Shown here: positions 14,594 to 51,442 of the stretch, piece by piece
Numbering within the stretch: the stretch's first letter is position 1
How the letters are laid out: each line of letters begins with the position of its first letter
NCBI GenBank assembly: GCA_003598085.1
Contig: QZKU01000004.1
Location: 1-64,000 of the forward strand
DNA length: 64,000 nucleotides
Source: Candidatus Abyssobacteria bacterium SURF_5
GTDB lineage: Bacteria > Abyssobacteria > SURF-5
Direction: 5' to 3'
Program-made: the position numbers and the translations under genes
The notes under the pieces: model-generated
Told to the model about the DNA's origin: nothing
What the model saw: only the letters and a program-made list of their open reading frames with translations
Database searches by the model: none

Positions 14594-14616
14594 AAGCCGG
14601 ACCGGCTTTCCCTTTG
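14593..14616 (+). terminator. Possible intrinsic terminator after the activase gene
   Basis: An inverted repeat AAAGCCGGACCGGCTTT starts at the last base of the activase stop codon and is followed by a T-rich CCCTTTGTTTG. The effective stem is about 6 bp with a 5-base loop, so termination may be inefficient. Confidence 0.4.
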
Positions 14617-14707
14617 TTTGATTTCGCTCTCTCCAATCTAATACAATACGCGTGCACACCGCGCATTCCATGGATAATTTATGTCCTCTCACATACGGAG
14701 GCACAGC

Positions 14708-29600: not shown

Positions 29601-29744
29601 TTGGTATGGGCTCTTCCTGGCAAACCAGATAGTGTCCTTCTCGATATTGCGGCTGACGCTGGTCGCCGCCCAAGCCGGCGCCGACAGAAGGACCACGAAA
29701 AGAATTGCGCAAAACCGGCACTTCCACAGTTTCTGCTTTCTCAT
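26640..29744 (-). CDS. Secreted right-handed beta-helix protein with internal duplication (1034 aa)
   Basis: A signal peptide (about 1-26, ending SAPAWA) starts the protein. Two long parallel beta-helix units occupy about 30-430 and about 650-1030. Both begin with the same pattern: KSPYxIxxxIxLxEGxxLxIEPGVxVxFxPxKxLxIxGxLxAxGTxxxPILFT. Both then run through repeated GGGIYAY / NNVI.GN coils typical of PbH1 repeats and Right-handed parallel beta-helix proteins. Between them are two fibronectin type III-like domains (about 435-640, including GIELTWEESPGANFTGHRIY). The family includes polysaccharide lyases and adhesins; no catalytic residues could be assigned. The gene starts 40 bases after the octaheme cytochrome stop, so it may be cotranscribed with the Mo-enzyme operon. 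Confidence 0.8.
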   Translation of the reverse strand: MRKQKLWKCRFCAILFVVLLSAPAWAATSVSRNIEKDTIWFARKSPYQITNDIKLIEGATLEIEPGVIVEFYPEKSLEINGSLRAVGTPAKPILFTAHTETPWGNVSFTDFSTDAAFSESGAYSAGCILSNCIVEKGGGLFIRFGAPFITQCEIRNNVSSGIRVEFGAPTIMGNRIYGNSTEHDPASGNGGGIISYSDRNVRIADNIIYNNISDGGRDGGGGIYAYAADGGTAHIMNNVIFGNSSSRFGGGIYAYKAILNGNTVINNKAILRGGGIYAVESEVADNLVQGNSAERGAGIFSENASIKSNSIIRNKAARIEGGGLHYFGSGPIEDNCIAANSADGDEGCGGIYVSGNPLIRGNNILGNEGYALYIANVSDAPDVVATENYWGTSSEDSILRVTYDWIDNESNGLAIYKPFMLEQRPQPPMLPPFHVRAASRDGGIELTWEESPGANFTGHRIYISSESGYPYDTVLQTGSEKSFLITDLEPEKEYFLCVSGFSTRDEGEAETGLSEEVRLYFSPSEESLLAPVNLHPADGDQGVLRDKIILKAAPPEAGEAVVSYRWQVFAAGDSAFNPVLDTMTSGPEMDELTMGSDKLQAVREYAWRIASRSPTGSWSDWSRPTGFTTAPETAFTLSGPIDSEMHLQKAKSPYFVAGNTIIMSEGRLVIEPGVAVHFAPGKNLKVRGELQARGTADAPILFTRESSGRWGSIIFAEQCADAILDDQRTYIDGTILEFCSIDGGKGLLIESSSPLIKNCEIAGNGGSGITIRQGGPVIAGNDIHHNEAPTNGGGIYAYTNDIIYVLSNKIHHNTADGDGGGIYAYGYMNTSTIHVEDNDITANTATGNGGGVYLSRSSAIGNRIDGNTAKAAGGGIYSTFGLVDENEVTRNQAREGGGIFTEHNSSITRNYIGSNIALSQFGGGVFINFWGTSIENEVFTRNTVTANRGRSAKDNGGVYVLGYLVFENNNVYGNSGSQFYNGNSADSSPFTTSNCYWGSSDGGAISRMIVDADDDPALGKVTFEPFLDKPVKIN

Positions 29745-29783: not shown

Positions 29784-31994
29784 CTAATAGTCCATCTGGG
29801 TCCAGTCGATCTCTTCTTTCTGCTCCTCCTCGGCCTCCGGCGGTTTCTCCGGTATTTTGTCCATAATCATCAGGTATTTGGAGACGAGGTCGATCCACAT
29901 TTCGGCGTCAGAGACCCTCTGGGCGCCTTCCGGGGTGTAGTAAACGTATGGCATTTTCGTGCCCGCACCCGCATATTTGTCCGGGTTGCGAAGGAAGTTC
30001 TTGATCCACTCGAAGCGCAGCCTCGTCTTCGAGAGCATGAGGTTAATCGAGAGGTCCTCAAGCTTGACGTCCTCCGGCAGACCTCCTTCAAGAGAGATCG
30101 GGTGGCACTGCATACACTTGTCGGCCACCACCCGATACTCGCCCATATCCCGATCGAGTTGTGGCATTTCCTCTTTCTGCGGAATCAGCACGTACGGCAC
30201 GCGAGCGTCCTCAGCAGAAGAAGACTTCACCGAAAAATAATCAATCATATCTTGCACTTGTTCATACGAAAAGGAAAAAGTCGGCATCCTCATCTTCAGC
30301 CACGGCCGCATGGGAACGGGTTTCGTCAGGTATTGAAAAGCCCATTGGGGCTGAACCTTCTCTCCTTCGCCGACGAGCCGGGGCGGCACGTACGTCTTGA
30401 GTCCGATGAACTGATCGATGCGCGGTTTGACGTTCTCCTCAAACATATGACAGCCGCGGCAATGGTTTTCGGTGACTTCCCATTCCCCCGCCTGTCCGCG
30501 CCGCTGGGCCTCTGCGGCCGCCAGCATATATTTCTGCGGAAGCTGAAAAACCGTGTTGGAGAAATAGAAAATGGTGAGTGATTCAATTTCGCCTTCTTCA
30601 AAGTTAAACTTCGGCATTTTCAACGGCATATCGACCGTCTCGTAAATCTTCGGTTCCTTTATCTTATTGAGAATCCAGTCCCATTTGGTCGTAGGAACCT
30701 GTGAATTTCCGAACGGGAGTTCGTCGAGCGTTTTCTTCGCGACCTCGGCCACCTCGACGCCGGGAAGCGGAGATCTGTCGAAGTCCTTCATCTTGTGACA
30801 GCCGTAGCAACCCTGAAGTTGAACCAGTTTGCCTCCGTTTTCCACTGACGCCCCGTCTGTTTTCAGCGGCTCCGAGCGCACAAGCTCGGCATTATCCTTC
30901 AGAGTCATAAGATATGCGGTGAGGTTGAGCCGGTCGCTATCGGTGATGTCGAGCTTGGGCATACGCGTGTCGGGGTTGTACGCCTTGGGATCCTTCAAAT
31001 ACTCGAACACCCAGTTCCCATTCAATTTGATTCCGGCGTCCGACAGATTCGGAATGCGTCTCGTCAGCGAATCCTCCTCCCGCTTTTCGGAATGGCAGGC
31101 TTTACATCCGAGGTCGGTAAACAGGGTCTCACCCTCTTTGGCGGACGCAGGTGACAGATCAACCTTCGGATATTCCTTATCGGATTTCAAAGAGAGCGCA
31201 TAGGCCGCAATGTCGCGAATTTCGTCATCCGAAAGCGTAAAGGTCGGCATGAGAGTGCGCGGCCGCATTTTTTCGGGAGTTTTCAACCAACTCAGCATCC
31301 ATCGTTCGTCCGCCAGCTTCTCCTTAAATCCGTCGAGAATTGGCGCGAATTTGGGAAGATCTTCGAATCCGCGCGCACTGTGGCAGTCGTAGCAACCATA
31401 TTTTTGAAAGGCGAGTCTGCCGAGTTCAAACTGCTCGGCCCCTTCCAGTCCGTATGAAGTCTCATGGCAGCCGATGCAAGGCGCCTGAAGATATTGATGC
31501 GGGATGAGCGGATTGTACCAGGTCTCTTCATATCCATGGGCAGCGAATGCGGTTGTCCCCACGCCCTGCCCATGATGACAGACAGTACAGCCAAATTTAT
31601 CCGCCTTATGCAGGTCAAGCATTTTCCCCGGATGAGCTTTAAACGGCTCGGGCGCATCGGCGAACAGGGGATTATCGATGCCGAGATGGCAGCTCGTGCA
31701 GAGATCGCGCACATTCGCATCCGGCAGGAACACCTGGCGAAGATGCGGCCGCATGGACCGGGCCTCGCGCAACTGCTTCTCCCATTTCTCTGTCTCAGCC
31801 GAGTCCCCGGCCTGAGCGGACGCGGCTATTTGCTCAAGCAGCTTCTGCTCCGACAGCTTCTGAAATTCTCGCTGATATGCCGCCCATTCGCGCGAGTTCT
31901 CGTGCTGGAAAACGCGCACCGTCAAAACGGCAAAAACCAGAATGGCCGCTGAGAAGACCAGGCGGCTCGAAAATTTCGCCCTGATGATATTCAT
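29784..31994 (-). CDS. Membrane-anchored octaheme c-type cytochrome (736 aa)
   Basis: One N-terminal anchor (about residues 11-28) leads into a periplasmic protein with eight CxxCH heme sites. They start at residues 99 (CTSCH), 136 (CTVCH), 173 (CIGCH), 201 (CYDCH), 297 (CKACH), 396 (CYGCH), 512 (CRGCH) and 627 (CMQCH). The first four are close together; the last four each sit in a mono-heme cytochrome c-like domain with distal methionine candidates such as RTLMPTF and RMPTFSF. It lies 7 bases after the cytochrome b C-terminal subunit, so it is most likely the cytochrome c partner of the Rieske/cytochrome b module. It could also carry electrons from the Mo-enzyme gamma subunit. Maturation would need a Ccm or Ccs system, not seen here. 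Confidence 0.85.
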   Translation of the reverse strand: MNIIRAKFSSRLVFSAAILVFAVLTVRVFQHENSREWAAYQREFQKLSEQKLLEQIAASAQAGDSAETEKWEKQLREARSMRPHLRQVFLPDANVRDLCTSCHLGIDNPLFADAPEPFKAHPGKMLDLHKADKFGCTVCHHGQGVGTTAFAAHGYEETWYNPLIPHQYLQAPCIGCHETSYGLEGAEQFELGRLAFQKYGCYDCHSARGFEDLPKFAPILDGFKEKLADERWMLSWLKTPEKMRPRTLMPTFTLSDDEIRDIAAYALSLKSDKEYPKVDLSPASAKEGETLFTDLGCKACHSEKREEDSLTRRIPNLSDAGIKLNGNWVFEYLKDPKAYNPDTRMPKLDITDSDRLNLTAYLMTLKDNAELVRSEPLKTDGASVENGGKLVQLQGCYGCHKMKDFDRSPLPGVEVAEVAKKTLDELPFGNSQVPTTKWDWILNKIKEPKIYETVDMPLKMPKFNFEEGEIESLTIFYFSNTVFQLPQKYMLAAAEAQRRGQAGEWEVTENHCRGCHMFEENVKPRIDQFIGLKTYVPPRLVGEGEKVQPQWAFQYLTKPVPMRPWLKMRMPTFSFSYEQVQDMIDYFSVKSSSAEDARVPYVLIPQKEEMPQLDRDMGEYRVVADKCMQCHPISLEGGLPEDVKLEDLSINLMLSKTRLRFEWIKNFLRNPDKYAGAGTKMPYVYYTPEGAQRVSDAEMWIDLVSKYLMIMDKIPEKPPEAEEEQKEEIDWTQMDY

Positions 31995-32001
31995 TTCTTC
32001 T

Positions 32002-32724
32002 TCAGATATTGAACCATGGCGTGGTCACAATGTACCTGATATTGAAGGCGAGGCGCAAAAGTATCTTGATCGGTACGCCGTACATCAAGAGCACAAGCGT
32101 GAAAGCGATGAGGTATCTCACCGCTCCCATGCGGCGGAAGATGCCCTTCATAAGGACTGCCGGCAGCGCCAGCCCAATTGTTATATACGTTGCAAGAAAG
32201 GCGATGCCGGCCCACTGAGGCATATTGACCAGCGTCTCTTCCGCGCTTTTTGCGACCGACCAATCCTCCCACAGCCAATAAAACTGCCAGTTGGGTCCGC
32301 GCAGGAACTGGCCGATCAGGATCAGGACGAACCACATCCCAAACCCGAACACATAGGTGATTATGGCCGCTCGGCGTTCGGAAAATGAGTACTTGCCGAT
32401 TGCCGTCGTGCTGACGTCAATATAAGGAATGAGGACGAGCCCGAGGATAATGAGAGTGGGAATGACAACTCCGGCGATCCACGGATCGAAGTATACGAGT
32501 AATTCCTGCAACCCGACAAAGTACCAGGGAGCTTTCGCCGGATTTTCAGTCTTGTTCGGGTCCGCAATGCTGAGGAGAGGAGCGTTCTGCAGCATCGACC
32601 ATACGAGCAGAATGACTGAAGCGATGATGGCGGCGATAAATTCCTTCATCACCAGATGAGGAATCACGAACTCAAACTCATCTTGCGCCACTTCAGCAGA
32701 ACCGGCTTTGACAGAGAGGTCCAT
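32002..32724 (-). CDS. Cytochrome b C-terminal subunit (subunit IV-like)
   Basis: This 240-residue membrane protein corresponds to the C-terminal half of cytochrome b (subunit IV of b6f). It starts at the ATG at 32724, preceded by GAGGATT and 11 bases after the stop of the N-terminal subunit. The Qo-site region reads NKTENPAKAPWYFVGLQELL; the b6f PEWY is here PWYF. Hydrophobic segments lie near residues 28-46, 85-107, 122-142, 170-195 and 205-225, more than the three of plant subunit IV. The same frame stays open far upstream, but that part overlaps the other subunit and does not look like protein. The split into two genes is of the b6f type. Confidence 0.85.
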   Translation of the reverse strand: MDLSVKAGSAEVAQDEFEFVIPHLVMKEFIAAIIASVILLVWSMLQNAPLLSIADPNKTENPAKAPWYFVGLQELLVYFDPWIAGVVIPTLIILGLVLIPYIDVSTTAIGKYSFSERRAAIITYVFGFGMWFVLILIGQFLRGPNWQFYWLWEDWSVAKSAEETLVNMPQWAGIAFLATYITIGLALPAVLMKGIFRRMGAVRYLIAFTLVLLMYGVPIKILLRLAFNIRYIVTTPWFNI

Positions 32725-32735
32725 AGAATCCTCAT

Positions 32736-33503
32736 CTAGAGCGGGTGTGAAATCCCTCCGTCTTTCCTCACCCGCCAGAAGTGAACGAACATCAATACCA
32801 CTGCCGCCAGCGGCAGCAGGATGCAATGCAGCACGTAGAACCGCAGAAGAGCGTTTTCTCCTACCATCGTGTCTCCGAGCAGCAAGTACTTCACGTCGTT
32901 CTCGGGTCCGATACCGAGCAATTGGTGGAAGGGTCCTTCGGAGCCCAGCAGAGGAGTAGCCCCGGCCATTCTCGTGCCGACGGTGATCGCCCAGAACGAG
33001 AGTTGGTCCCACGGGAGGAGATAACCGGTAAAACTGAGCAGAAGCGTCAACACCAGGAGGAAAACGCCGACCACCCAGTTGAATTCCCGCGGCGGACGAT
33101 ACGAGCCGGTGAGGAAGACCCTCAGCATATGCATCATCACCAGGATGACCATGGCGTGGGCCGCCCACCGGTGCAGATTGCGCATGACGAGGCCGAACTT
33201 CACCACGTGTTCGAGCAAGCGCATGTCGAGATACGCATATTCGACCGTCGGGCGATAATAGAACATGAGAAGCACGCCGGTGATCGTCTCCACCAAAAAC
33301 ATGAAGAACGTCAGGCCCCCGAGGCAAAAGGTGTGCCTGATTTTCAGGCCTATCCTTCTCACTTTCGGCGGATGCACATGAAGGAAAAAGTTGGAGACGA
33401 CCGTCAGCACCCGGTTGCGGGGAGTATCAGAAAATCGGTGCCTGAAGACCGAGCGCCATATTTGGCTCTCGGTGATCTTTTTGGATATGCTTCCCATATG
33501 CAT
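32736..33503 (-). CDS. Cytochrome b N-terminal subunit (b6-like, bis-heme)
   Basis: This 255-residue protein is a diheme cytochrome b with four transmembrane helices. The heme-ligand pairs are present: the His of NLHRW and the His 14 residues later in VMMHMLRVF (helix II), and the His of FYVLHCILL with the His of [14 protein letters not shown] (helix IV). [12 protein letters not shown] is the conserved Qo-side segment. Together with the following subunit, the octaheme cytochrome and the Rieske protein at the start of the operon it should form a quinol:cytochrome c oxidoreductase-like complex. No ribosome binding site is visible before the ATG at 33503: a palindromic element ends three bases upstream. 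An alternative start is the Met at 33497. Confidence 0.9.
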
Positions 33504-33506
33504 TAC

Positions 33507-33596
33507 GGGGCCAGACCTTGACGCATGACATAAGCGGATTCGCCGAGAAAATTCAGTCTAAAGGAAGGCTTATGTCATCTGCCAAAGCCTGACCCC
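33507..33596. repeat. Palindromic element with 28-bp inverted repeats between torD-like and cytochrome b genes
   Basis: Two 28-base arms (33507-33534, beginning GGGGCCAGACCTTGACGC, and 33569-33596, ending CAAAGCCTGACCCC) are inverted copies matching at 22 of 28 positions. Most differences are transitions, so RNA would still pair through G-U. The GGGGTCAGGC...ATGACATAAG style resembles termini linked with IS200/IS605-like or REP-associated transposases. It is a likely non-autonomous element and may attenuate transcription inside the operon. Confidence 0.65.
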
Positions 33597-33602
33597 CTCA
33601 CT

Positions 33603-34316
33603 TCAATTCCGGTCTGGATGCAACCGCTGGAGATGCTGCAAATCTCCGGCGCATACGTTAGCGGCCAAGCCGATAACGCCGCAATAAAAGGAGACCGCCG
33701 CCTCGCACAGGTTCGGCACCTTGCGCGACGCCAAAACCTTCTCGGCTTTCCGATGAAGCTCCGGCAACCATCTGGCCGGGTGGCGCTTGAGGAAATCGAT
33801 TTCGGCGAACACGTAAGGCGTGATGTCCTCGTTTCTCTGCAACGCTATGACTTCTTTAAATGTCAGGTAATGCATGAACTCGAGTTGGGTTGTCACATGG
33901 TCCGGGAGTTCGCGTTCCGGCGCTTCAGCGACGCTGAGACCGAAGTTGTTGTAGAAGCGTACCAGTTCCTCCATATTGCCCATTCTGTTGCCGGCATATT
34001 TCCCTTCATAGAGAGGGCAGGGAGGTCCTCCCGGGCCTGCGTCAAAAACGCGAACGAATTCGGCTTCGAAATCCTCCTGTGACACGTTTTTCAGCAGTTG
34101 GCCGGAAAGCGCCCCTTCCTCCACAGCCACTTCGTACGGGAGATCATGCAGAAGCGCAAGTACATACTTCAGATACTCGCCGTCCTTCACCATCTTCAGA
34201 AATTCCGTTTCGGGGTACCGAAACGATTCGGCGAGGAATCGGTACATCTGGCTTCTGCGCGCGCGTTCCGTCTGCTCGACGCCCTTGATGTTATCGAGTT
34301 CGACGATAGGCTTCAT
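33603..34316 (-). CDS. TorD/DmsD/NarJ-like chaperone of the Mo-enzyme
   Basis: This 237-residue all-helical protein belongs to the TorD family of dedicated chaperones that hold the apo-catalytic subunit, assist Mo-cofactor insertion and guard the Tat signal. Visible features are RRSQMYRFLAESFRYPE at the N-terminus, the EFVRVFDAGPGGPPCPLYEG segment with its Pro-rich loop, and FMHYLTFKEVIAL in the C-terminal half. It is cytoplasmic, with no signal. It follows the beta subunit by 22 bases, as in ebdD/ddhD/narJ-type operons, which strongly supports an assembly role for the alpha subunit encoded upstream. Confidence 0.88.
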   Translation of the reverse strand: MKPIVELDNIKGVEQTERARRSQMYRFLAESFRYPETEFLKMVKDGEYLKYVLALLHDLPYEVAVEEGALSGQLLKNVSQEDFEAEFVRVFDAGPGGPPCPLYEGKYAGNRMGNMEELVRFYNNFGLSVAEAPERELPDHVTTQLEFMHYLTFKEVIALQRNEDITPYVFAEIDFLKRHPARWLPELHRKAEKVLASRKVPNLCEAAVSFYCGVIGLAANVCAGDLQHLQRLHPDRN

Positions 34317-34338
34317 GCTACCCTTTCAGCAAAAATGC

Positions 34339-35472
34339 TTATGTGTACATCGAATTCATCGGGTCCTTGTTGAACGGCCCGAACATCTTTTCCCACCGCT
34401 TCGCGATCAGGATTTCCATCAGTTCCGATTTCTCTCCATCCCGCGTTCTCTGCATTTCCTGCTGAAGCAGCTTCAGCGACTGCTCGACTTCCGGGCCGAA
34501 CAGGTCCACCAGATATCGCAGCGGGATGCGCGGCTTTGAGGTATCGATTTTGCCCGTATCGTCGAGCCGGGGCGGAGCAAGCGGCGGCACATAATACACG
34601 TTCGGTTCGGTCCCGAACTTCGGGAACAGCGGCAGGGCCACTTTCCACTTCTTCACGAGCTGGTATATCGGTCCCTGTTCATTATCGAGATAATCGACAA
34701 AACGAACGCGTCCGGTGCATTGGCGCACGCACGCATTGGCCACGCCCTTCTCGATGCGCGGGTAGCAGAAGATGCATTTTTGACTGGTCAACTTCTCAAA
34801 GTTGAAGTAAATCTTCTTATACGGGCACGCCTCCAGGCAGAAGCGGTATCCCTTGCAGCGATCCTGGTCGATAAGCACGATCCCGTCCTCTTCGCGCTTA
34901 TAAATTGCGTGGCGGGGGCAGGCGTCGATGCACGGCGGATATGTGCAGTGGTTGCAGATTCTGGGAAGATAGAAGAAGAAGCTGTTGGGATAGTTGATGC
35001 CGACAGCGCCCTGATCTTCGTCCCAGTTCATTGACCATTCTGGAGTAGTGCCATCGCTGTTCTTGGCGGACAGCGTCACTTGCCCCCATTTGGTATTCAG
35101 GATCTCGTCGTGATTGAAGGTCCACAGGTCTCCGAATTCCTTTCGAGTAGGCAGTTTGCCGCGGATAGGCTCGCGCACGCGCCCCTCGAAAAGCACTTTG
35201 TAGCCGCCGCCGCTCTTCTCGAAATCCTTCGGTGTTCCTTTGCCGGGCATGGTATTGACGGTGTTCCACCACATGTACTCCCGGCCTTCTTTTTTCGTCC
35301 ACGTGTTCTTGCACGCCATGCTGCAGAGCTGACAGCCGATGCACTTGTTGAGGTCCATCACCATGGCGAGCTGGCGCTTGGTGCGGCGCAATTCATCCTT
35401 GATCGCCAGAAATTCCTTCGAAAGTTCCTCTTGTCGCTGCTTATCTTCCTGTGTCGGTTCCAGTACTGCCAT
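34339..35472 (-). CDS. Iron-sulfur beta subunit of a DMSO reductase type II enzyme (EbdB/DdhB/NarH-like)
   Basis: This 377-residue electron-transfer subunit carries four cysteine groups. They are CIGCQLCSMACKNTW; CNHCTYPPCIDACPR; CKGYRFCLEACPYKK; and CIFCYPRIEKGVANACVRQC. In the third group the middle cysteine is replaced by Tyr (C-x2-Y-x2-C), the signature of a 3Fe-4S cluster as in NarH (Trp there) and ethylbenzene dehydrogenase. The predicted set is therefore three 4Fe-4S and one 3Fe-4S. The KNTWTKKEGREYMWWN segment is typical of the NarH/EbdB/SerB branch. It lacks a signal peptide, so it would cross the membrane together with the Tat-bearing alpha subunit. Confidence 0.92.
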   Translation of the reverse strand: MAVLEPTQEDKQRQEELSKEFLAIKDELRRTKRQLAMVMDLNKCIGCQLCSMACKNTWTKKEGREYMWWNTVNTMPGKGTPKDFEKSGGGYKVLFEGRVREPIRGKLPTRKEFGDLWTFNHDEILNTKWGQVTLSAKNSDGTTPEWSMNWDEDQGAVGINYPNSFFFYLPRICNHCTYPPCIDACPRHAIYKREEDGIVLIDQDRCKGYRFCLEACPYKKIYFNFEKLTSQKCIFCYPRIEKGVANACVRQCTGRVRFVDYLDNEQGPIYQLVKKWKVALPLFPKFGTEPNVYYVPPLAPPRLDDTGKIDTSKPRIPLRYLVDLFGPEVEQSLKLLQQEMQRTRDGEKSELMEILIAKRWEKMFGPFNKDPMNSMYT

Positions 35473-35514
35473 GTTTATTCTCCTCTATCTGAAGGATTGA
35501 AGCCAAATCATCCA

Positions 35515-36195
35515 TTATGCAAGCTGAATATCCCGCCATTCCTTTGAGAAGGCTTTTACGCCGCCTCGCTCGCCGGCCGCTCCTTCCCAGGCGGCGACAC
35601 CAATCTGTTTTTTCATTCCGGCGGCCAGTTTGATTGAGTCCTCGGGAACCGTGAAAGCACGGCTCATGACGACCGTCCATTCGCCGTTCTTCCAGCCGGA
35701 ATTCGCCATAATGGAACTTTTTTCGGTGTACAGACTGGTGGAAAGACCTTGAGCAATCTGATTCTTCGGCTTATTATCGAAGTCGGCGCGCCAGTACCAG
35801 GAATTGGTGGGAGCGTCTTTGGTTCCCATTTCTTTGATCGGCGTCTCAATGTCGTCGCGCATTGGGAAGAGGAGCGAAACTCCGTCGGGAAACGTATCCA
35901 GATCGCCGATTTGGAGGTTCTGGTTTTCGCTTTTCCAGTTCAAACGGAAGAATATCTCTTTCCCGTTATGGAGGGTTTTAAGCCTTACTTGCGGTATTTT
36001 CCCGATGTCCTTTTCATCGCGCGTCGCCTTGATATAAGGAGACGGCTGGTTTGCGAGCGGAGTGGCCGCCGTTTCCAAAACATATTCGTTCGCGCTTTTC
36101 CATACAGGCGAATCCAGCTTGAGCAATTCATCTTTGGTGGCCGTCACCTTCGCCGCCACGATCTTATCAGCAGTTGTCGTCGCATTTTCAGCCAT
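35515..36195 (-). CDS. Heme b-binding gamma subunit (ethylbenzene dehydrogenase EB_dh domain)
   Basis: The 226-residue protein resembles the gamma subunits of ethylbenzene dehydrogenase, DMS dehydrogenase, selenate and chlorate reductases. These bind one heme b through a Met and a Lys in a beta-sandwich. The matching landmarks are the strand region GKEIFFRLNWKSEN, a Met in SLLFPMRDD (candidate axial ligand) and a lysine in GGVKAFSKEWRDIQL near the C-terminus (candidate second ligand). The N-terminus (MAENATTTADKIVAAKVTA) is not a clear signal peptide, so export would depend on the alpha Tat signal. It lies between alpha and beta genes, an order different from ebdABCD. Confidence 0.82.
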   Translation of the reverse strand: MAENATTTADKIVAAKVTATKDELLKLDSPVWKSANEYVLETAATPLANQPSPYIKATRDEKDIGKIPQVRLKTLHNGKEIFFRLNWKSENQNLQIGDLDTFPDGVSLLFPMRDDIETPIKEMGTKDAPTNSWYWRADFDNKPKNQIAQGLSTSLYTEKSSIMANSGWKNGEWTVVMSRAFTVPEDSIKLAAGMKKQIGVAAWEGAAGERGGVKAFSKEWRDIQLA

Positions 36196-36226
36196 AATGT
36201 GTGTCCCCCTTCGTTACATGCCGCTC

Positions 36227-39136
36227 CTATGCCTTTTGAACCTCAACCGTCACCGCCCGGTCAACAGGTTGAGTACACCAATTCCACCGGTAGTAGTTGA
36301 GGTGACCGTATCCAGCCGCCAAGTCCAGCCATTTTATCATACCGGGTATGGCCGCGTCATAACTCTTCCACTTCTCGAACTGGTACGGCTCCCAGGCATG
36401 GTAAATGATCACCTGCCCCGGCTGCAAATCGTTTTGCGAGCGAGCAGCCGAAGTGACCTTGACATGGACCTTGAAATCATCGAAATCATTGAAAACGCGA
36501 ACCAGGTCGCCGTCCTCAATCCCCCGTTTTTTGGCGTCCTCGGTGTTCATGAACATGAATGGTCGCCCCTGATGGGTGCGAGCGAGCACATCGTCGGTAA
36601 TCCAGATCGAGTGAACGCTCCACCGCTGGTGGCCGCTGGTCATGCGCAGCGGGTAGTTGCCGCCCATATTCGGGTTGTCCTTGTGGACCGGGAGCTGTTC
36701 TCCTGCCTCGATGAACCAGTCGTGATCGATATAGAAGGTGATCCTCCGGTTGTAGGTCGGATACGGTATCTTTTTTGGCCCGGTATGATATGTAAGCGGC
36801 ACGATCGGCTCGTCCGGCTTAATATCGGTCATGAGGTGCATCGCGATGACGTCGAGCTTCGAGACGCTCGTGAAGCGAACGATGCCGTCCTTGCGGAGGG
36901 ACTGAAGGTTTGTGCCTTCGGGCAGAGTACCGAGCGTCGCGCTCAGTTGAAGCGCATCATCGAGCGTTTCGTCGGCGGAATTTCTCTGCAGCGTCTGCCG
37001 TTCCACAAGCTTTGTCATGTCGAGCGTGGTGCCGGTTCGGGTCTTAAACTCTTTGATTCCCCGTTTTCCACAGATTTCCTGCACCTTGACGGCCAGGAGG
37101 CGGCCGACCTCCCATTCCTCTTTCCCCTCGCCGAATGGTTTCACCGCCCGTTCCGTCAGCGTGAGCCAGGGGACGTGGGGGGTCGGGAATCGCGTGTCGG
37201 TTTTCTCATAGAATCCGGCGCCGGGCAAGATCATATCGCTCATGAGAGCGGTCGTGCTCCAGCGTGTCTCGACGGCAAATATAAACTTGTACTGTTTCCA
37301 CAAACTTGGGTAGATATTGGTCAGCCAGCCGCGGTTTTTCCGCGCCGGGCTGGTCCCCTGATAGCAGTAAACAAGCGGTTTCTGATCTTTTGCCGGTCTG
37401 ATTAACCCGTCCCACCAGCCTTTCGCGACCGCCTCGTTGAAGTACTCGGCGAAGCTGCGTTTCATCGTGGGGCAGTGCCAGTCCTTCCGGTCCCAAGTAT
37501 CCTTATAGCCGGAATGGTAGTAGTAAAGGAAAACCGGCGGGACCATTCCGAGGCGCTCTCGGTCCGCCGTTCGCTCCATTTCGCGCTGGATCATCTCGTC
37601 AGTCAACGACGGATCCTTCGCCTTCAGCATGAATTTATCCACCCGCGACTCGCCGAACTGCCACAGAGAACTAAGCCCTCTCCGTTCGCGGATCATGAGA
37701 GCGGTCGCGCCGTCAAAGAGCGATTCGCTCCAGCCGCGGATGCCGCTCCCCTTGTTGCCGATGCTGCCCGTCAGCGCCAGCAGCAGGCACATGGCGCGCT
37801 CCATCAGATCGCCATGATAATACTTGGAAGAATTCCAGCCCACCAGCACCTGCACGTGGCCGCGTGCTCTCCACGCTTTTTCCGCGAGGCCGCGGATGGT
37901 ATCGGCATTGACGCCGGTCATTTTCGAGACCTGCTCCGGCTTGTAATCTCTCTCCAATTCTTCTTTGAGGAGATCGAAGACCGGCCGCACTTCCACCTTC
38001 TGCCCGTTATTGAGAGTGACGGTATACCGGCCTTCAAGAGCGGGATCGCATGGGAGCGCAAGCGTCTCGCGCGGCGCCTTCACCGGCGCATTCGTCTTGG
38101 TATCCCAGAAATACATCTGGTCTTCCCAACCGCTGCCGGTCATGTCGGTTTCGCGGAGAAACTTTTTGGTGTCCGACCTGACAAGCATTCCGAGGTCCGT
38201 TTGCTCCTTGATGAATGCCTTGTCGTATTTACCCTGAGAAATAAGCTGCTGCGCAAGAGCCAGTCCCAGAGCCGCATCGGCGCCAAACTCGATAGGAATC
38301 CATTCGTCGGCATGTACGGCCGATGGCGAATAGTCGGGAGCTATGGTGATCACTTCCGAGCCGTTGTAGCGGGCCTCGGAAATGAAGTGGTACGAGGGAA
38401 TGCGCGTGTACACCGGGTTCATATGCCAGATCAGCAGCAGTTTCCCGAAAAACCAGCCGTCAACAGAGTCGCAGAACTGGAATTTGCCGAACGTTTCGTA
38501 CACGCCTTTATTGAAGTCGCCGATAGTCGAGTTCAGGTCGAGTTCCGTTGCCCCGAGACCGCTGAAAAAGCGGAACATCGTGATCAGATGAATCCAGCCT
38601 CCGTTGCCAGGACCCGGCTCGTACACGATGGATTCGGTTCCATTGGCCTGAATGGCGTCAACCAACTGGGTGGCCACCTCGTTGATCGCCTCATCCCATG
38701 ATATCCGCTTCCACTTTCCCTCGCCCCGTTCGCCAACTCGCTTCATGGGGTACTTGACGCGGTCGGGATTGTACATCATATTGCTGTAAGAACAGCCTTT
38801 CTGGCAGCCGCGCGGGTTCCAATCAGGACCGGTCGCATCAACAACGGGATATTTTCCCGCTTGTTCTTCGCGCCACACGATCCCGTCTTTGGTGTATACG
38901 CGCCACAGGCAATTGCCGGGATAACAATCCACCAGGTGTGTTCCGTAAGTCACCTTGTCCCATTTCCACTCATCACGATGCAGCTTTTCCCAGCCGCTGT
39001 ACTTCCATTCTTGAAACACCTTCTCCGTCGCGTGCGCGGTTCCTCCCAGGAAGCCGAGTGAATCGAGCGAGAGCGCCAGCGCGGTCGTGCCGGTTATCTG
39101 CAGAAAACGGCGCCTCGTGAACCTGAAGTCCGACAT
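36227..39136 (-). CDS. Molybdopterin catalytic alpha subunit, ethylbenzene dehydrogenase / DMS dehydrogenase-like (969 aa)
   Basis: The start at 39136 has a strong AAGGAGG site and places a twin-arginine signal (TRRRFLQITG, residues 7-16) at the N-terminus. A longer frame from 39190 would bury it. The FS0 cluster ligands are His67, Cys71, Cys76 and Cys111 (H-x3-C-x4-C-x34-C). Asp207 in STIGDFNKG is the expected Mo ligand of type II DMSO reductases. Other family segments are NPRGCQKGCSYS, YEPGPGNGGWIHL and the MGD-binding C-terminus (PLRMTSGHQRWSVHS). Relatives hydroxylate hydrocarbons or steroid side chains with water, or oxidise/reduce S, Se and Cl compounds. The neighbouring alcohol dehydrogenase makes a hydroxylase plausible. 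Substrate unknown; periplasmic. Confidence 0.9.
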   Translation of the reverse strand: MSDFRFTRRRFLQITGTTALALSLDSLGFLGGTAHATEKVFQEWKYSGWEKLHRDEWKWDKVTYGTHLVDCYPGNCLWRVYTKDGIVWREEQAGKYPVVDATGPDWNPRGCQKGCSYSNMMYNPDRVKYPMKRVGERGEGKWKRISWDEAINEVATQLVDAIQANGTESIVYEPGPGNGGWIHLITMFRFFSGLGATELDLNSTIGDFNKGVYETFGKFQFCDSVDGWFFGKLLLIWHMNPVYTRIPSYHFISEARYNGSEVITIAPDYSPSAVHADEWIPIEFGADAALGLALAQQLISQGKYDKAFIKEQTDLGMLVRSDTKKFLRETDMTGSGWEDQMYFWDTKTNAPVKAPRETLALPCDPALEGRYTVTLNNGQKVEVRPVFDLLKEELERDYKPEQVSKMTGVNADTIRGLAEKAWRARGHVQVLVGWNSSKYYHGDLMERAMCLLLALTGSIGNKGSGIRGWSESLFDGATALMIRERRGLSSLWQFGESRVDKFMLKAKDPSLTDEMIQREMERTADRERLGMVPPVFLYYYHSGYKDTWDRKDWHCPTMKRSFAEYFNEAVAKGWWDGLIRPAKDQKPLVYCYQGTSPARKNRGWLTNIYPSLWKQYKFIFAVETRWSTTALMSDMILPGAGFYEKTDTRFPTPHVPWLTLTERAVKPFGEGKEEWEVGRLLAVKVQEICGKRGIKEFKTRTGTTLDMTKLVERQTLQRNSADETLDDALQLSATLGTLPEGTNLQSLRKDGIVRFTSVSKLDVIAMHLMTDIKPDEPIVPLTYHTGPKKIPYPTYNRRITFYIDHDWFIEAGEQLPVHKDNPNMGGNYPLRMTSGHQRWSVHSIWITDDVLARTHQGRPFMFMNTEDAKKRGIEDGDLVRVFNDFDDFKVHVKVTSAARSQNDLQPGQVIIYHAWEPYQFEKWKSYDAAIPGMIKWLDLAAGYGHLNYYRWNWCTQPVDRAVTVEVQKA

Positions 39137-39186
39137 AAGAACCTCCTTACCCAATGCTTCGGCCGCATCCCCGGGCGACCAACCGA

Positions 39187-40263
39187 TCAAGGCGTCAAGG
39201 CAATCTTGATCACATCATCCGAACGTTTCTGGAACATCTCGTAACCCTTGACTCCCTCCTCCAATGACATCCTGTGTGTAATCAGGGGGGTCGCGTCCAG
39301 CAGGCCTGCTTCTATTAGCCTGAGGAGCCGGTCCATGTGAACCACATTGACAAGCCCCATGCTGACCCCGATGTTCTTGATCGAGAGCTGCGGCATCATG
39401 AGTTCCTGCGGATCCTCGAAAATGCCGATGATCGACACGTTGCCGCCGGGTCTGACAGCCTGGAAACAGGCGTCAAAGGTCGATTTTATCCCCACGGCTT
39501 CGATTACAACATCGGCGCCGCATCGGCTTTTCACCTGCTCCAGGATATCACGCGGGGCGCCTCCCGTTAGTTCCTGTATCTCATGAATAACATCCTTTTT
39601 GCCCGGGTCGATTGTATGCGTGGCTCCAAGGGCTCTGGCCACTTTGAGACGGCCGGGAATGGGGTCGACCGCGATCAATTTTGCGGGGCTGAATAAAGTC
39701 GCGCATGCAATCGCGCAGAGGCCTACCGGCCCGGCTCCGAAGACAACGACGCTGTCGCCCGGACAGATTTTCCCGTTAATGACGCCGAAATATCCGGTCG
39801 AAAGGATGTCTCCCACCAGCAACACTTGCTCGTCCGACAGCGAAGGTGGAATCTTGTGCATCCCAAGTTGGGCGTAAGGCACGCGAATATACTCGGCTTG
39901 CGCTCCGTCGAAGTTTCCAAGGAAAGGACCACAGCCAAAAACGCCTCCTTTTTTGCATTTGGCCGCCAGCCCTTTTTGGCACATCTCGCACTTGCCGCAC
40001 TGCACTGTGCACGCGACCGCCACGCGGTCACCGGGGGCAAATCCGTCAATGCCCTCGCCGCATTCTTCCACCACACCCACAAATTCGTGGCCGAGGATAG
40101 TGCCCGGCATCATCGGAGCGGCGCCGTGAATCATGTGAATGTCGCTCCCGCATATGCTGGACAGAGTTACTTTTACAATGGCGTCATCGGGATGCTCGAT
40201 TGAGGGTTTTTCGACATCTGCGACGGCGACTTGATTGATTTCTTCAAAGATGATCGCCTTCAT
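39187..40263 (-). CDS. Zinc-dependent medium-chain alcohol dehydrogenase
   Basis: This 358-residue MDR enzyme shows catalytic zinc ligands Cys38 (SSICGSD) and His59-Glu60 (ILGHEFVG), and structural zinc ligands Cys89, Cys92, Cys95 and Cys103 (CGKCEMCQKGLAAKC). The NAD(P)-binding loop is VVVFGAGPVGLCAI. It would oxidise a secondary or primary alcohol in the cytoplasm. Its place directly before the Mo-hydroxylase gene suggests that the hydroxylation product is its substrate, as 1-phenylethanol is in ethylbenzene degradation (there an SDR enzyme does the step). It overlaps the ferredoxin stop by four bases (ATGA), which points to translational coupling. The alpha subunit starts 50 bases downstream of its stop. 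Confidence 0.92.
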   Translation of the reverse strand: MKAIIFEEINQVAVADVEKPSIEHPDDAIVKVTLSSICGSDIHMIHGAAPMMPGTILGHEFVGVVEECGEGIDGFAPGDRVAVACTVQCGKCEMCQKGLAAKCKKGGVFGCGPFLGNFDGAQAEYIRVPYAQLGMHKIPPSLSDEQVLLVGDILSTGYFGVINGKICPGDSVVVFGAGPVGLCAIACATLFSPAKLIAVDPIPGRLKVARALGATHTIDPGKKDVIHEIQELTGGAPRDILEQVKSRCGADVVIEAVGIKSTFDACFQAVRPGGNVSIIGIFEDPQELMMPQLSIKNIGVSMGLVNVVHMDRLLRLIEAGLLDATPLITHRMSLEEGVKGYEMFQKRSDDVIKIALTP

Positions 40264-40553
40264 GGCTCTCCGTCACTCAAAGGAACCATAGTGATGGCAT
40301 TCCATGGACATCCTTCAATATAGGCGCCGAGAGGTCCGCGCGTGACACAGTTGCGGCATCCGATGCATTTTTCCGGGTTGACCCGCATCCTTTTGAAGAG
40401 GAAGCTGCTGTCATCATCCACAAGTTCGAGAGCTCCGTCGGTCGGACAGAACATGGCGCAAACGGGAGAGCCCGCACATCCCGTGCACAAATCACCGATA
40501 CAAGCAACCTGACGTCTCCGCGCCACGACCGGTCGTCCTCCGGCAACAATCAT
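40260..40553 (-). CDS. Two-cluster 4Fe-4S ferredoxin-like protein
   Basis: The 97-residue protein has two cysteine groups. The first is CTGCAGSPVCAMFC (with a preceding CIGDLC). The second is CIGCRNCVTRGPLGAYIEGC, an expanded ferredoxin motif with a long insertion before the last cysteine and a following PWNAI. This is like the HycB/PhsB-type electron-transfer domains, but very short. No signal peptide is seen, so it is probably cytoplasmic. It overlaps both neighbours by four bases: its ATG with the Rieske stop, and its stop with the dehydrogenase ATG. That tight coupling suggests it works with the alcohol dehydrogenase or the Rieske protein, perhaps as an electron carrier. Confidence 0.8.
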   Translation of the reverse strand: MIVAGGRPVVARRRQVACIGDLCTGCAGSPVCAMFCPTDGALELVDDDSSFLFKRMRVNPEKCIGCRNCVTRGPLGAYIEGCPWNAITMVPLSDGEP

Positions 40554-41116
40554 ACCTTAATGAATACTTCCTGCTTTTCAAATTCTTCAATTGTGAAAAT
40601 CTGACTCGTGTCGACAACGAGATTGCCGCGGGTATTCTGAGAAATTTTCAGCCGGTCGAGCGGACGAGGAGCGGGTCCGGCGAAATTGACGCCGTTTGAA
40701 TAAAACTGGCTTCCATGGCAGGGACATTTGTAGATGCCGAGACCGGGAAACCAGTTGACCGTACATCCCAGATGCGTGCAGCGCGCAAAGAGCGCATAGA
40801 TGCGTGAGGCCTCGCGAATAACAAAAAACCGTTGCTCCGTCTTCCACCGCGGTTCCACGAAAACGACGCCGTACGCGTCGGGATCGGCGCCTGACGAAAA
40901 ATTATCTATAGTGCCGATTTCAAATATGCTCGGGGGATGGAATACTACGGTGGGAGAAAAGAAACGAACGGTCTGGATGGCGCCCGCACCGGAAAGAGCA
41001 AAAAGCGAGCCCCAACCGATAACCGAAAGGCTCTTGTGCAAGAGTTCGCGCCTGCTGAGCCCTTCTGACATCGCTCTCACTTTATCACCAGCAGTTGAGC
41101 CGGCTTCCATAACCAC
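40550..41116 (-). CDS. Rieske 2Fe-2S protein of a bc-type complex
   Basis: The 188-residue protein holds both Rieske boxes: CTHLGC (Cys113, His115, Cys118) and CPCHGS (Cys131, Cys133, His134). A twin-arginine-like SRRELL (residues 21-26) and a hydrophobic helix (about 30-50, SVIGWGSLFALSGAGA) form an uncleaved Tat anchor as in other Rieske subunits. A GAGPAPRPLDRLKI segment follows the second box, as usual. GTG at 41116 is four bases from AAGGAG; ATG at 41110 or 41071 are alternatives. The cytochrome b genes are 7 kb downstream in the same operon, separated by the hydroxylase genes, which is unusual. It follows the MerR-like regulator by 35 bases. Confidence 0.9.
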   Translation of the reverse strand: MVMEAGSTAGDKVRAMSEGLSRRELLHKSLSVIGWGSLFALSGAGAIQTVRFFSPTVVFHPPSIFEIGTIDNFSSGADPDAYGVVFVEPRWKTEQRFFVIREASRIYALFARCTHLGCTVNWFPGLGIYKCPCHGSQFYSNGVNFAGPAPRPLDRLKISQNTRGNLVVDTSQIFTIEEFEKQEVFIKV

Positions 41117-41151
41117 TCATCTCCTTGACGGCCAAAGCGCGAGTCTAAGCT

Positions 41152-41898
41152 CTATAGCTGTCGTTGAGGGTCGAGCTCGCGGCCGATTTTTAAAATCATC
41201 CGTTTGCGAAGCAAGCCGATTAGGGTGTTGAGCAGATTGATGCCGTTCTCCGCCATATTCACCATCTCATCGGGAGACATCCTGCCGGTTACCGTTTTCG
41301 AAAAGAACCGCACTTCCTGCCGCGCGAGAACCTCGATCAGGTCGACATATATCTTGATGAACTCGGAATTGAATCCCGCTTCCTCCGTGTAACCGGCATC
41401 GCGTAGCTTCCTCAGAATCTCGATAATCCTTACCGAATCCTCGTCAAAGCGGCCATCCAATTTGCGCCAGATGATGCCCACCCGCTCCATCTCCAGCACC
41501 TCTTCCTTCGAGACACCCGTCAGCTCACACAGAGCTTTCAGGTCGGGTGGATCAAACTTTGGCAGGGTGGAGATATTCTTGAAAAGCCTTCCCTCGAGTT
41601 CCAGAATCGTCTTGATTTCCTGAGTGTCCATCGAGCTTTCGCCTTGCTCGAGAATTTGCTTGATGATGCTCAGGGGGAAGTAACGCTTCTCTTGCAGCTC
41701 ACGAATCAATCGGATACGCTGCACATAGCTCTGGTCGTAGTAGGCCATGTTGCGATGCGTCTTGAGCGGCCTCGGAAGGAGGCCTTCGTTGATATAATAC
41801 CGAATGGTGCCGGGCGGTACGCCGGTAAGTCTGGAGAGCTCGTGCATCTTGAGGAGCTTCTGCTTGTGGGCTGGCTTATTTTTTGTGATCGGGGTCAT
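41152..41898 (-). CDS. MerR-family transcriptional regulator
   Basis: The 248-residue protein has the MerR winged helix: MHELSRLTGVPPGTIRYYIN (residues 18-37), then NEGLLPRPLKTHRNMAYYD and VQRIRLIRELQEKRYFPL. The C-terminal 160 residues are longer than the metal sensors and lack their cysteines. They may bind an organic ligand. It is the first gene of the Rieske/Mo-hydroxylase operon, so it probably controls that operon and itself. A TTGACA-17-TAATTT promoter (41949-41977) and a palindrome TTTAC-AAA-GTAAA (41911-41923) lie directly upstream. No clear ribosome binding site precedes the ATG at 41898. Confidence 0.88.
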   Translation of the reverse strand: MTPITKNKPAHKQKLLKMHELSRLTGVPPGTIRYYINEGLLPRPLKTHRNMAYYDQSYVQRIRLIRELQEKRYFPLSIIKQILEQGESSMDTQEIKTILELEGRLFKNISTLPKFDPPDLKALCELTGVSKEEVLEMERVGIIWRKLDGRFDEDSVRIIEILRKLRDAGYTEEAGFNSEFIKIYVDLIEVLARQEVRFFSKTVTGRMSPDEMVNMAENGINLLNTLIGLLRKRMILKIGRELDPQRQL

Positions 41899-48385: not shown

Positions 48386-49510
48386 TTATCCTCTTTCCGC
48401 TGTCGCTGAAGCCGGCTTCTTCTTAAAACACTGCAAACCTCTTGAGGCGGTGAGGGCAAGGCAGCGGTTGCAGGAGACGCACTGAGCGGGGGCGCGGTCG
48501 CCCTCGAGCCAGCGCTTGACCAGGTGGGGCTCGCAAATCAGCGGCCGGCAAAGCGAGACCATAGCTGCTTTACCTTCGGCCACAATCGATTCAGCCGTTT
48601 CGACAGACCTGATTCCACCGACGGTGATGACGGGAACAGAAAGAGCGCCGGCGAACTGTTGCGCATACTGGAGAAAGTATGCTTCCGGCCGTTTCCGCGG
48701 TATCCCCTTTTGGATCGATTTTCCTTCTTCGAGAGTGGTATCCCAGATGCCGCCGCTGATCTCGATTGCATCCATTCCCATTTCGGACAATCTGCGCGCC
48801 ACCCACATCGATTCATCGAGTTCGAGACCATCCTCGACAAAGTCCCTGCAATTAAGCTTGATAAGAACAGGATAGCCGGCGCCGACCGAGCGCCGTATCT
48901 CCTCGTAAGTCTCAAAGAGGATTCGTGCCCTCGCCGGTAAATCGCCACCGTACCCGTCGGTTCGCCTGTTTGAATTCCGGGCGAGAAACTGGTTGAGAAG
49001 GTATCCATGCGCGCAATGAATTTGGACCGCGTCAAAACCGGCCTTCTTCGCGCGAGCGGCCGCCGCGCCAAAATCGAGCACAAGCCTCTGTATTTCCGGT
49101 TGGGTCAGCTCGCGAGGAGTCGCGCCGAACTTTTTCGTCGGCACTGCCGAGGGACCCACCGGCGGGCCTTCGATCAACTCGGGAAAAGCTTGGCGCCCGC
49201 AATGCACGATTTGAGCGCAAACCAGCCCTCCGCTTTCATGGACCGCCTGTGTCAGCCGCGCAAAGCCTGCGATGTGTTCATCCGACCAGATGCCGAGCAT
49301 TCCGGGACCGCCTATGCCATTGGGTTGGACGGCGGCATAGCCGACGACAATAAGGCCCAGGCTCCCCGCGCCGAGTTCTCCGTACAGCCGCGCCAGTTCA
49401 TCCGTCGCCATTCCCTTAGCCGTGGCCAATCCTTCGTAAGTGGCTGAACGAATGAACCGGTTCGGCAACCGCAACTGGTTGATGTCGATCGGTTGAAGCA
49501 CGTTGTACAT
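48386..49510 (-). CDS. Old yellow enzyme-type NADH:flavin oxidoreductase, short form
   Basis: This 374-residue protein has the OYE barrel: LRLPNRFIRSATYEGLA, AQIVHCGRQAF, HCAHGYLLNQFLARNSN and MVSLCRPLICEP. At the C-terminus are the cysteines CVSCNRCL and GLQCFKK, resembling the 4Fe-4S site of the long enoate reductases. The C-terminal FAD/NAD domains of those enzymes are absent. It may need a separate reductase for electrons, possibly the electron-transfer flavoprotein encoded just upstream, though a strong terminator lies between. The tyrosine/histidine pair of typical OYE substrate binding could not be fixed. Confidence 0.87.
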   Translation of the reverse strand: MYNVLQPIDINQLRLPNRFIRSATYEGLATAKGMATDELARLYGELGAGSLGLIVVGYAAVQPNGIGGPGMLGIWSDEHIAGFARLTQAVHESGGLVCAQIVHCGRQAFPELIEGPPVGPSAVPTKKFGATPRELTQPEIQRLVLDFGAAAARAKKAGFDAVQIHCAHGYLLNQFLARNSNRRTDGYGGDLPARARILFETYEEIRRSVGAGYPVLIKLNCRDFVEDGLELDESMWVARRLSEMGMDAIEISGGIWDTTLEEGKSIQKGIPRKRPEAYFLQYAQQFAGALSVPVITVGGIRSVETAESIVAEGKAAMVSLCRPLICEPHLVKRWLEGDRAPAQCVSCNRCLALTASRGLQCFKKKPASATAERG

Positions 49511-49530
49511 TGACTTTCTCCTTGGACAGA

Positions 49531-49565
49531 AAACGGGGCCGGATCAGAGATGATCCGGCCCCGAA
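49531..49565 (-). terminator. Rho-independent terminator of the etf operon
   Basis: Read leftward, a perfect 13-bp stem (CGGGGCCGGATCA with its complement, 49536-49565) with a 4-base loop is followed by TTTTC. It lies 16 bases after the etfA stop, between etfA and the OYE-like gene. Confidence 0.85.
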
Positions 49566-49580
49566 ACGGCTCTTGGTGTC

Positions 49581-50567: not shown

Positions 50568-50612
50568 CTTTTCTTCTCCTTACGATCAGTATAAAAACCC
50601 GGCGGTTCATGT

Positions 50613-51398: not shown

Positions 51399-51442
51399 GA
51401 GCATCCTCCTTTATGCTTTACTGCACGCGGAAAGCCTGGTTT

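Follow-up and report, generated by a model that had tools for sequence, protein, structure and literature searches.

Previously described systems

The closest described relative of the hydroxylase analysed here is AhyABC of Desulfosudis (Desulfococcus) oleivorans Hxd3, a putative alkane C2-methylene hydroxylase which has been tied by proteomics to growth on alkane, as cited in PMC7803848. The gene name ahyA has also been assigned to homologues in Chloroflexota (PMC13170169). A studied relative, ethylbenzene dehydrogenase (EBDH; EbdABC of Aromatoleum aromaticum, PDB 2IVF), is described as soluble and as handing its electrons to cytochrome c. It requires high-potential acceptors or cytochrome c; its heme b lies at +256 mV and the substrate couple at +30 mV (PMC8840923). 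How sulfate reducers such as Hxd3 afford Mo-dependent alkane hydroxylation is an open question in anaerobic hydrocarbon degradation. In the steroid C25 dehydrogenases (S25DH) of Sterolibacterium denitrificans, many alpha subunits share fewer beta–gamma sets, and the passages of PMC6016249 consulted mention no Rieske/b module. Haloarchaeal nitrate reductase (Nar) operons combine Rieske and cytochrome b genes with those for a type II alpha subunit, a beta subunit, an EB_dh-type gamma subunit and TorD, and their NarC is a homologue of bc1 cytochrome b (PMC8301774).

Organization of the ahy locus

In the window (the whole 64,000-nucleotide stretch analysed), eleven tightly packed genes occupy positions 29784–41898, all on the reverse strand. 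A preliminary description had recorded eleven same-strand genes with small gaps, from a MerR-type regulator to an octaheme cytochrome, and profile matches and ORF coordinates bear this out. The MerR-family regulator (41152–41898; MerR_1, PF13411, 81.7 bits) lies 35 bases upstream of the gene for a Rieske [2Fe–2S] protein (40550–41116; PF00355), which has a twin-arginine signal/anchor and the boxes CTHLGC and CPCHGS. These are followed by a small 4Fe–4S ferredoxin without signal sequence (40260–40553; Fer4_7), a medium-chain zinc alcohol dehydrogenase (MDR, ADH; 39187–40263; PF08240, PF00107) and the catalytic Mo alpha subunit (36227–39190). Successive genes from Rieske to alpha overlap by 4 bases, and the remaining intergenic gaps of the cluster are 7–99 bases. 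Downstream are the gamma (35515–36195) and beta (34339–35472) subunits, a TorD/NarJ-like assembly chaperone (33603–34316; PF02613; TIGR03482, 140 bits), the N (32736–33503) and C (32002–32724) halves of a cytochrome b, and a membrane-anchored octaheme c-type cytochrome (29784–31994). The Rieske gene is separated from the cytochrome b genes by 7.0 kb, in agreement with the 7 kb given earlier. The first reading missed a further gene downstream, the significance of the ferredoxin, and orphan alpha subunits elsewhere in the genome.

The molybdenum enzyme

The alpha subunit (PF00384) has a Tat signal, FS0 ligands and a Mo-ligating Asp. The FS0 and Mo ligands H85, C89, C94, C129 and D225 are invariant in an alignment of 11 alphas, and D225 aligns with EbdA D223, the Asp ligand to Mo. 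Against the curated family TIGR03479 the subunit scores 897.8 bits, below the cut-off of 984.75, yet this is by far its best family; Hxd3 AhyA (892.6) is also below the cut-off. In a tree built without C25dh, CmdA, DdhA and SerA sequences, the window alpha, three paralogues, Hxd3 AhyA and Desulfobacterota sequences form one clade (support 1.0), inside the hydroxylases and far from the oxyanion reductases. Hxd3 has only one AhyA-type gene, and it is with this gene that the window alpha groups (62–64 % identity). By its sequence, the subunit is a type II Mo C–H hydroxylase of the AhyA clade. The earlier assignment to an ethylbenzene-dehydrogenase-type hydroxylase, and not to an oxyanion reductase, thus holds as to type, in the tree and in the best relative among solved structures (2ivf_A, EbdA), but AhyABC rather than Ebd is the closest relative. 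On the evidence of the tree, a chlorate, perchlorate or nitrate-type reductase was rejected.

The beta subunit, with four Fe–S clusters, matches 2ivf_B and exceeds the cut-off of TIGR03478 (495.6 against 480.7 bits). The gamma subunit, of the EB_dh family (PF09459), matches 2ivf_C and NxrC; its score for TIGR03477 (134.2 bits) is below the cut-off of 169.85, yet this too is by far the best family, and an invariant Met and Lys fit heme b axial ligands. The alpha–beta–gamma architecture, the FS0 motif, the Mo Asp ligand, Lys450 and the gamma Met/Lys pair are all common to this enzyme and EbdABC. Identity with EBDH itself was rejected: the alpha scores 801 of 2000 bits for the EbdA equivalog NF042978, and EbdA His192, a catalytic residue, aligns with Pro. 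This Pro also counts against the best explanation presented below, as does the uncultured state of the Poribacteria-type organism. The enzyme is a probable, still putative, oxygen-independent alkane hydroxylase.

The window genome encodes four alphas, one cognate beta and one cognate gamma; three of the alphas, additional to the complement of Hxd3, are orphans elsewhere in the genome. The orphans probably share the single beta–gamma–Rieske/b chassis, which they would borrow for other substrates, much as alphas share beta–gamma subunits in S25DH. This suggests one electron chassis common to several catalytic subunits. The beta and gamma subunits of another locus (L004) were rejected as natural partners of the orphans, being just 40 % and 22 % identical to the cognate subunits. 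Because metagenome-assembled genomes (MAGs) are incomplete, statements on orphan alphas here, and on sole cytochromes b below, are weakened; those on Hxd3 are unaffected.

The Rieske/cytochrome b/octaheme module

Both Rieske cluster boxes and all four His ligands of the hemes b are invariant in every aligned homologue, and the nearest solved chains to the Rieske protein are 9rk3 and 9rk4. The N half of the cytochrome b (PF00033, 145.7 bits) has two His pairs with b6-like spacing, and cytochrome b6 chains are its best PDB matches. A Cys is present at the heme-ci-binding position (b6 C35), and FCLGG is conserved. The subunit IV-like C half, the start codon of which is inferred at about 32724, has a weak match to PF00032 (21.3 bits, just over the cut-off). 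Its Qo motif is APWY (AAWY in L144) in place of the PEWY (or PDWY) of bc1/b6f complexes; PEWY occurs in a separate cytochrome b, C78. APWY was rejected as a peculiarity of the hydroxylase system, being common to the whole octaheme-linked group.

No cytochrome c1 or f is encoded in the operon, where the sole c-type cytochrome has eight hemes and takes the place of these proteins. It has exactly eight CxxCH motifs, all invariant in 12 homologues; an AF2 model from a 12-sequence alignment (mean pLDDT 51) was set aside. Some octaheme paralogues occur without Rieske/b. The ferredoxin gene adjoins the Rieske gene in 14/14 hydroxylase-linked modules, as against 0/18 other Rieske/b loci. The heme-ci Cys is kept in hydroxylase-linked and stand-alone modules and lost in Nar/Nxr-linked modules, to whose cytochrome b that of the ahy module is sister.

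Conservation and comparison with other loci

The complete set is syntenic in L020, L029–L034, L090, L117, L126 and L142; the genome holding L117 is taken to be that of Hxd3. In L144 the set is reordered yet complete, and in one genome (L143/L157) the alphas next to the module belong to other hydroxylase clades. Every Ahy-clade operon for which sufficient sequence is available, in two phyla, carries the module, whereas any cytochrome b was found nearby in only 1/63 non-Ahy hydroxylase loci; the Chloroflexota hydroxylase loci examined are without the module. The proposal that a bc-like complex is built into the system is thus borne out by synteny of the set in a dozen further loci from two phyla. 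The ADH gene was found in the window's own family only, with a 72 % homologue in L020, and is absent from the Desulfobacterota loci compared. MerR matches also occur beside the related operons L020, L030, L033, L090, L117, L126 and L142.

The Hxd3 operon has an order like that of the window (Rieske–ferredoxin–alpha–gamma–beta–TorD–cytochrome b N–cytochrome b C–octaheme–beta-helix); the window operon differs in its added ADH and in its MerR gene, which is in line here and divergent in Hxd3. In Hxd3 and in 6/7 MAGs, of sulfate-reducer type, the genome has no bc-type cytochrome b apart from the ahy-linked one. No heme-copper oxidase was found in the window genome or Hxd3. A dsrA gene is present in Hxd3 and was not found in the window genome, which has Nar/Nxr-like systems.

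It had been stated that no described system has this set of genes. This goes too far, since in haloarchaeal Nar operons Rieske and cytochrome b genes accompany those of a type II enzyme, and the published Hxd3 genome has the full set except the ADH. The haloarchaeal operons differ in that the Haloferax alpha pairs with PcrA and that of the window falls among the hydroxylases, no octaheme, ferredoxin or beta-helix gene is annotated, and their cytochrome b is distant from that of the window. Further Rieske/b/octaheme modules, Nar/Nxr-linked or alone, occur in Desulfobacterota and the window genome (L004, L116, L121–L123, L145–L150). Their Rieske protein, cytochrome b (50–63 %) and eight- or nine-heme cytochrome are homologous to those of the window, and they share APWY, but the alpha, where present, is of 1148–1166 aa, and there is no Rieske-adjacent ferredoxin or beta-helix gene. 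The module does exist without a Mo enzyme (L145–L150), which is half of one of the two refuting outcomes named beforehand; the other half, loss of synteny, was not seen, and neither was the second outcome, a grouping of the alpha with oxyanion reductases. No description of a Rieske/b module with ahy genes was found in the literature searched, which lay outside subscription papers and reviews, where one may be mentioned. That literature likewise contains no account of the dedicated ferredoxin, of the beta-helix gene, or of a link between Rieske/b and C–H hydroxylation.

Proposed electron transfer and alternatives

The explanation favoured, with moderate confidence, is that the ahy operon encodes a periplasmic AhyABC-type alkyl C–H hydroxylase together with its own electron-exit complex, running in reverse to menaquinone. 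The Mo enzyme would insert a water-derived OH into a C–H bond (in Hxd3, at C2 of n-alkanes), and two electrons would pass from Mo through FS0–FS4 to the gamma heme b, leaving at high potential. The octaheme cytochrome would accept these electrons for delivery to the Rieske protein. Running backwards, the b6-like cytochrome b would then spend proton-motive force, and the menaquinone so reduced would feed quinol-linked respiration, while the ADH would oxidize the product alcohol in the cytoplasm. Electrons would most likely move opposite to their usual course through a bc complex. The Qo motif APWY, instead of PEWY, counts against this scheme, and the ferredoxin has no place in its simple form.

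A flow in the forward direction, with menaquinol oxidized by Rieske/b and electrons entering, via the octaheme, a Mo enzyme acting as a reductase, has been proposed for haloarchaeal nitrate reductase. The composition of the module matches that precedent, the cytochrome b has its sister group in Nar/Nxr-like modules, and EBDH and NarGHI have similar Mo potentials (PMC8840923). This is nevertheless considered unlikely, given the position of the alpha within the hydroxylase clade, the association of the Hxd3 protein with alkane growth (as cited in PMC7803848), and the absence of both ferredoxin and heme-ci Cys from Nar/Nxr-linked modules. A small probability is also given to the octaheme passing most hydroxylase electrons to some other acceptor, in the periplasm or outside the cell (nitrate reductase, metal oxides or partner cells), with Rieske/b serving another flow that ends in the octaheme. 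The stand-alone modules and the Nar/Nxr-like systems of the window genome would fit such an arrangement. However, in Hxd3 there is no other bc-type role for the cytochrome b and no oxidase in the genome; the Rieske and hydroxylase genes are interleaved; and, as some octaheme paralogues without Rieske/b exist, an octaheme-only option was open to the cell.

The ferredoxin could point to confurcation, in which high-potential Rieske electrons and low-potential ferredoxin electrons, the latter via heme ci/bH/bL, pair at Qo to give menaquinol without proton-motive force. Its strict association with the Rieske gene in hydroxylase-linked modules, and the heme-ci Cys retained there and lost in Nar/Nxr-linked modules, argue for this, but stand-alone modules without ferredoxin also carry the Cys, and the ferredoxin could instead aid assembly of the Mo enzyme or the Rieske centre. 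To our knowledge, no such quinone-level ferredoxin-confurcating complex has been described, and the idea is regarded as improbable. It is likewise doubtful that the locus encodes a quinone-level confurcating machine, with electrons from octaheme/Rieske and from ferredoxin meeting at Qo, that serves several interchangeable catalytic subunits; if true, this would enable a low-potential anaerobe to run a hydroxylase that releases its electrons at a level far higher than that of the respiratory chain. That the hydroxylase and Rieske/b/octaheme genes are unrelated transcription units, neighbours by chance, deserves almost no credence. Both parts do occur separately, but this reading is rejected because synteny is conserved in two phyla, with an interleaved order that has survived rearrangement (L144) and alpha replacement (L143).

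The conserved bc-type complex, octaheme and ferredoxin offer a concrete answer to how sulfate reducers afford the reaction, a dedicated complex lifting electrons into the quinone pool, which is testable in cultured Hxd3. The gene set, present in distant anaerobes including this alkane degrader, suggests a route for high-potential hydroxylation electrons into the respiratory chain. As a gene marker of true Ahy systems, the module is also better than ahyA by itself.

A twelfth conserved gene

The cluster extends to a twelfth conserved gene (26640–29744), directly downstream of the octaheme gene, which encodes a secreted protein with a beta-helix–fn3-like–beta-helix arrangement (PF13229, PF00041). 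When its AF2 model (pLDDT 82) was compared with folds in the PDB, the matches were generic pairs of fn3 domains and the beta-helices of PL6 alginate lyases, which indicated no function. In every Ahy locus long enough to include this position, a homologue directly follows the octaheme gene.

Identity of the hydroxylase

The enzyme had been called ethylbenzene-dehydrogenase-like in the preliminary description. EbdA of ethylbenzene dehydrogenase (EBDH) is indeed the closest solved structure to the alpha subunit, but the latter falls far below the curated EbdA cut-off. The assignment to the hydroxylases is upheld: a 126-alpha tree with ClrA, PcrA and a haloarchaeal Nar alpha at its root unites the alpha of the window with its paralogues and the gene of Desulfosudis oleivorans Hxd3 in one clade (support 1.0) within the hydroxylases. 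The Hxd3 enzyme, Ahy, is a putative alkane C2-methylene hydroxylase, with proteomic support as cited in PMC7803848; the Hxd3 genome used here is a single 3,944,167-bp contig taken to be that strain. In a scan of named genomes, the closest relatives of the alpha were in a MAG labelled Candidatus Poribacteria, whose contigs match genome G001, of the same family as SURF_5, and in eight Desulfobacterota-type MAGs (63–65 %).

Operon layout and cofactor sites

All eleven genes described previously, from the MerR-type regulator to the octaheme cytochrome c, are present on the minus strand at 29784–41898, as claimed. Neighbours in the Rieske/ferredoxin/alcohol dehydrogenase (ADH)/alpha run overlap by 4 bases, and the remaining intergenic gaps are 7–99 bases. 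A twelfth gene, for a secreted beta-helix/fn3-like protein (26640–29744, minus strand), lies directly downstream, 39 bases past the octaheme gene, and is a member of the operon's conserved set. As judged by reading the sequence, alpha and the Rieske protein carry twin-arginine signals, the octaheme cytochrome an N-terminal anchor and the beta-helix protein a Sec-type signal; no signal sequence was seen in beta, gamma, ferredoxin or ADH.

In alignments, the alpha subunit retains the ligands of FS0, the Asp that coordinates Mo (D223 in EbdA) and the Lys450 of EbdA, and has Pro at the position of EbdA His192. The beta subunit matches EbdB and PcrB along its whole length. One Met and one Lys are invariant in gamma, and would suit heme b ligation of an unusual type (PMC8840923). 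The Rieske cluster boxes are complete. In cytochrome b, two pairs of His are spaced as in b6, the heme-ci position holds a Cys, and the Qo motif is APWY. The octaheme cytochrome has eight CxxCH motifs, none of which varies across 12 homologues.

Conservation of the linkage

The order Rieske–ferredoxin–alpha–gamma–beta–TorD–cytochrome b (N and C halves)–octaheme occurs in every Ahy-clade operon with enough sequence: the window, L020, L029–L034, L090, L117 (Hxd3), L126 and L142, the last ending within the cytochrome b C half (L115 ends within alpha at a contig end). The beta-helix gene follows the octaheme gene in all sufficiently long loci of this set. Beyond it, L144, from a genome contig of 3.4 Mb in one piece, holds these genes in a different order, with Rieske and ferredoxin adjoining cytochrome b. 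In L143/L157, gamma–beta–TorD precede several tandem alphas of other hydroxylase clades and then Rieske–ferredoxin–cytochrome b–octaheme. The synteny proposed earlier as a check is therefore borne out. Of the 63 hydroxylase loci outside the Ahy clade, only one had a cytochrome b nearby, and that one of distant similarity (31 %); in 22 of the 63, the sequence extended for 8 kb or more in both directions. It is therefore selection, rather than chance, that keeps the module with these hydroxylases.

The preliminary description knew of no described system with this set. The haloarchaeal nitrate reductase operon, however, already unites Rieske, cytochrome b, a type II Mo-enzyme, an EB_dh gamma and TorD (cf. 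PMC8301774), so the bare gene combination is not new. What is new, as far as the searched literature shows, is the clade-wide linkage of the module to anaerobic C-H hydroxylases, including that of reference strain Hxd3; so are its pairing with a ferredoxin and a beta-helix protein and the arrangement with several alphas.

The Rieske/b/octaheme module is also found alone (L145–L150) and with Nar/Nxr-like enzymes (L116, L121, L123 and, in the SURF_5 genome, L004). L145–L150 have no Mo-enzyme within about 9 kb of the module and retain the heme-ci Cys and APWY. L004 (4234–14822, contig C42), the second Rieske/b operon of SURF_5, encodes a Rieske protein, a fused 518-aa cytochrome b, a nine-CxxCH cytochrome, a 1158-aa Nar/Nxr-like alpha, beta, an EB_dh gamma and TorD.

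A ferredoxin gene adjoins the Rieske gene in 14 of 14 hydroxylase-linked modules, including that of the window, versus none of 18 others, although these loci are related and hence not independent events; L122 has one weak ferredoxin match, 8.8 kb distant. The heme-ci Cys is present in hydroxylase-linked modules and absent from Nar/Nxr-linked ones. In the cytochrome b tree, the Ahy loci are sister to Desulfobacterota Nar/Nxr-linked modules (support 0.96 for the joint clade, but only 0.76 for the Ahy loci as a group). No bc-type cytochrome b other than that of the ahy locus was found in Hxd3, whose genome is one contig, or in six of the seven first Ahy MAGs, which may be incomplete; G174, G383, G427 and G521 have further such genes. 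Octaheme paralogues (36–38 %) without adjacent Rieske/b genes occur in Ahy-bearing genomes (L119:9007–11190 and L124:7952–9922).

Proposed electron route

In EBDH, electrons exit at heme b (+256 mV), the substrate couple lies at +30 mV, and the enzyme works only with cytochrome c or acceptors of high potential (PMC8840923). Hxd3 has dsrA; SURF_5 has no dsrA over the cut-off, and on its contig C7 a NarG-sized alpha adjoins a NarH-like beta. Neither genome has a heme-copper oxidase. The acceptors of both organisms are thus supplied by chains that are low in potential or quinol-linked, and menaquinone lies near −75 mV. Such cells would need a complex passing electrons from a c-type cytochrome to quinone, paid for by the proton-motive force. 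A bc-type complex running in reverse, as known from iron-oxidising acidophiles, would answer that need, and the operon appears to encode such a complex. We infer all steps beyond the gamma heme b. The ferredoxin and heme-ci Cys could be compatible with ferredoxin supplying the low-potential half of the electrons, but this seems rather improbable.

Multiple alphas and other genes

SURF_5 has four AhyA-type alphas, 76–80 % identical: one on C4, two on C41 (L006:7496–10420 and 11922–14876) and one on C113 (L007:5179–8163). Cognate beta and gamma subunits were found only once each, and no beta, gamma or Rieske/b genes lie near the three additional alphas. The alphas probably share one beta–gamma chassis, in a draft genome that could miss a second set. 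In Sterolibacterium, beta–gamma is thought to be common to several alphas (PMC6016249). In its alphas and beta, the sister MAG G001 resembles SURF_5; in-frame stops are reported within the matches for three of its four alphas (C267, C77, C176), where pseudogenes, assembly errors or match-edge stops are alike possible. Type II hydroxylase alphas have 14 matches in the Desulfobacterota genome G521 (L143, L156, L157 and other contigs); one operon there carries several of them in tandem, along with just one beta–gamma–TorD set and a Rieske–ferredoxin–cytochrome b–octaheme module.

Elsewhere in the window, a 791-aa PFL-like glycyl radical enzyme (53697–56072, minus strand) scores under the cut-off of every characterised subfamily, the best being TIGR01774. 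Genes for ETF alpha and beta lie together with one of the Old-Yellow-Enzyme type at 48386–51404 (minus strand), and a 1444-aa BcrA/BadF-type dehydratase activase is encoded at 10259–14593 (plus strand).
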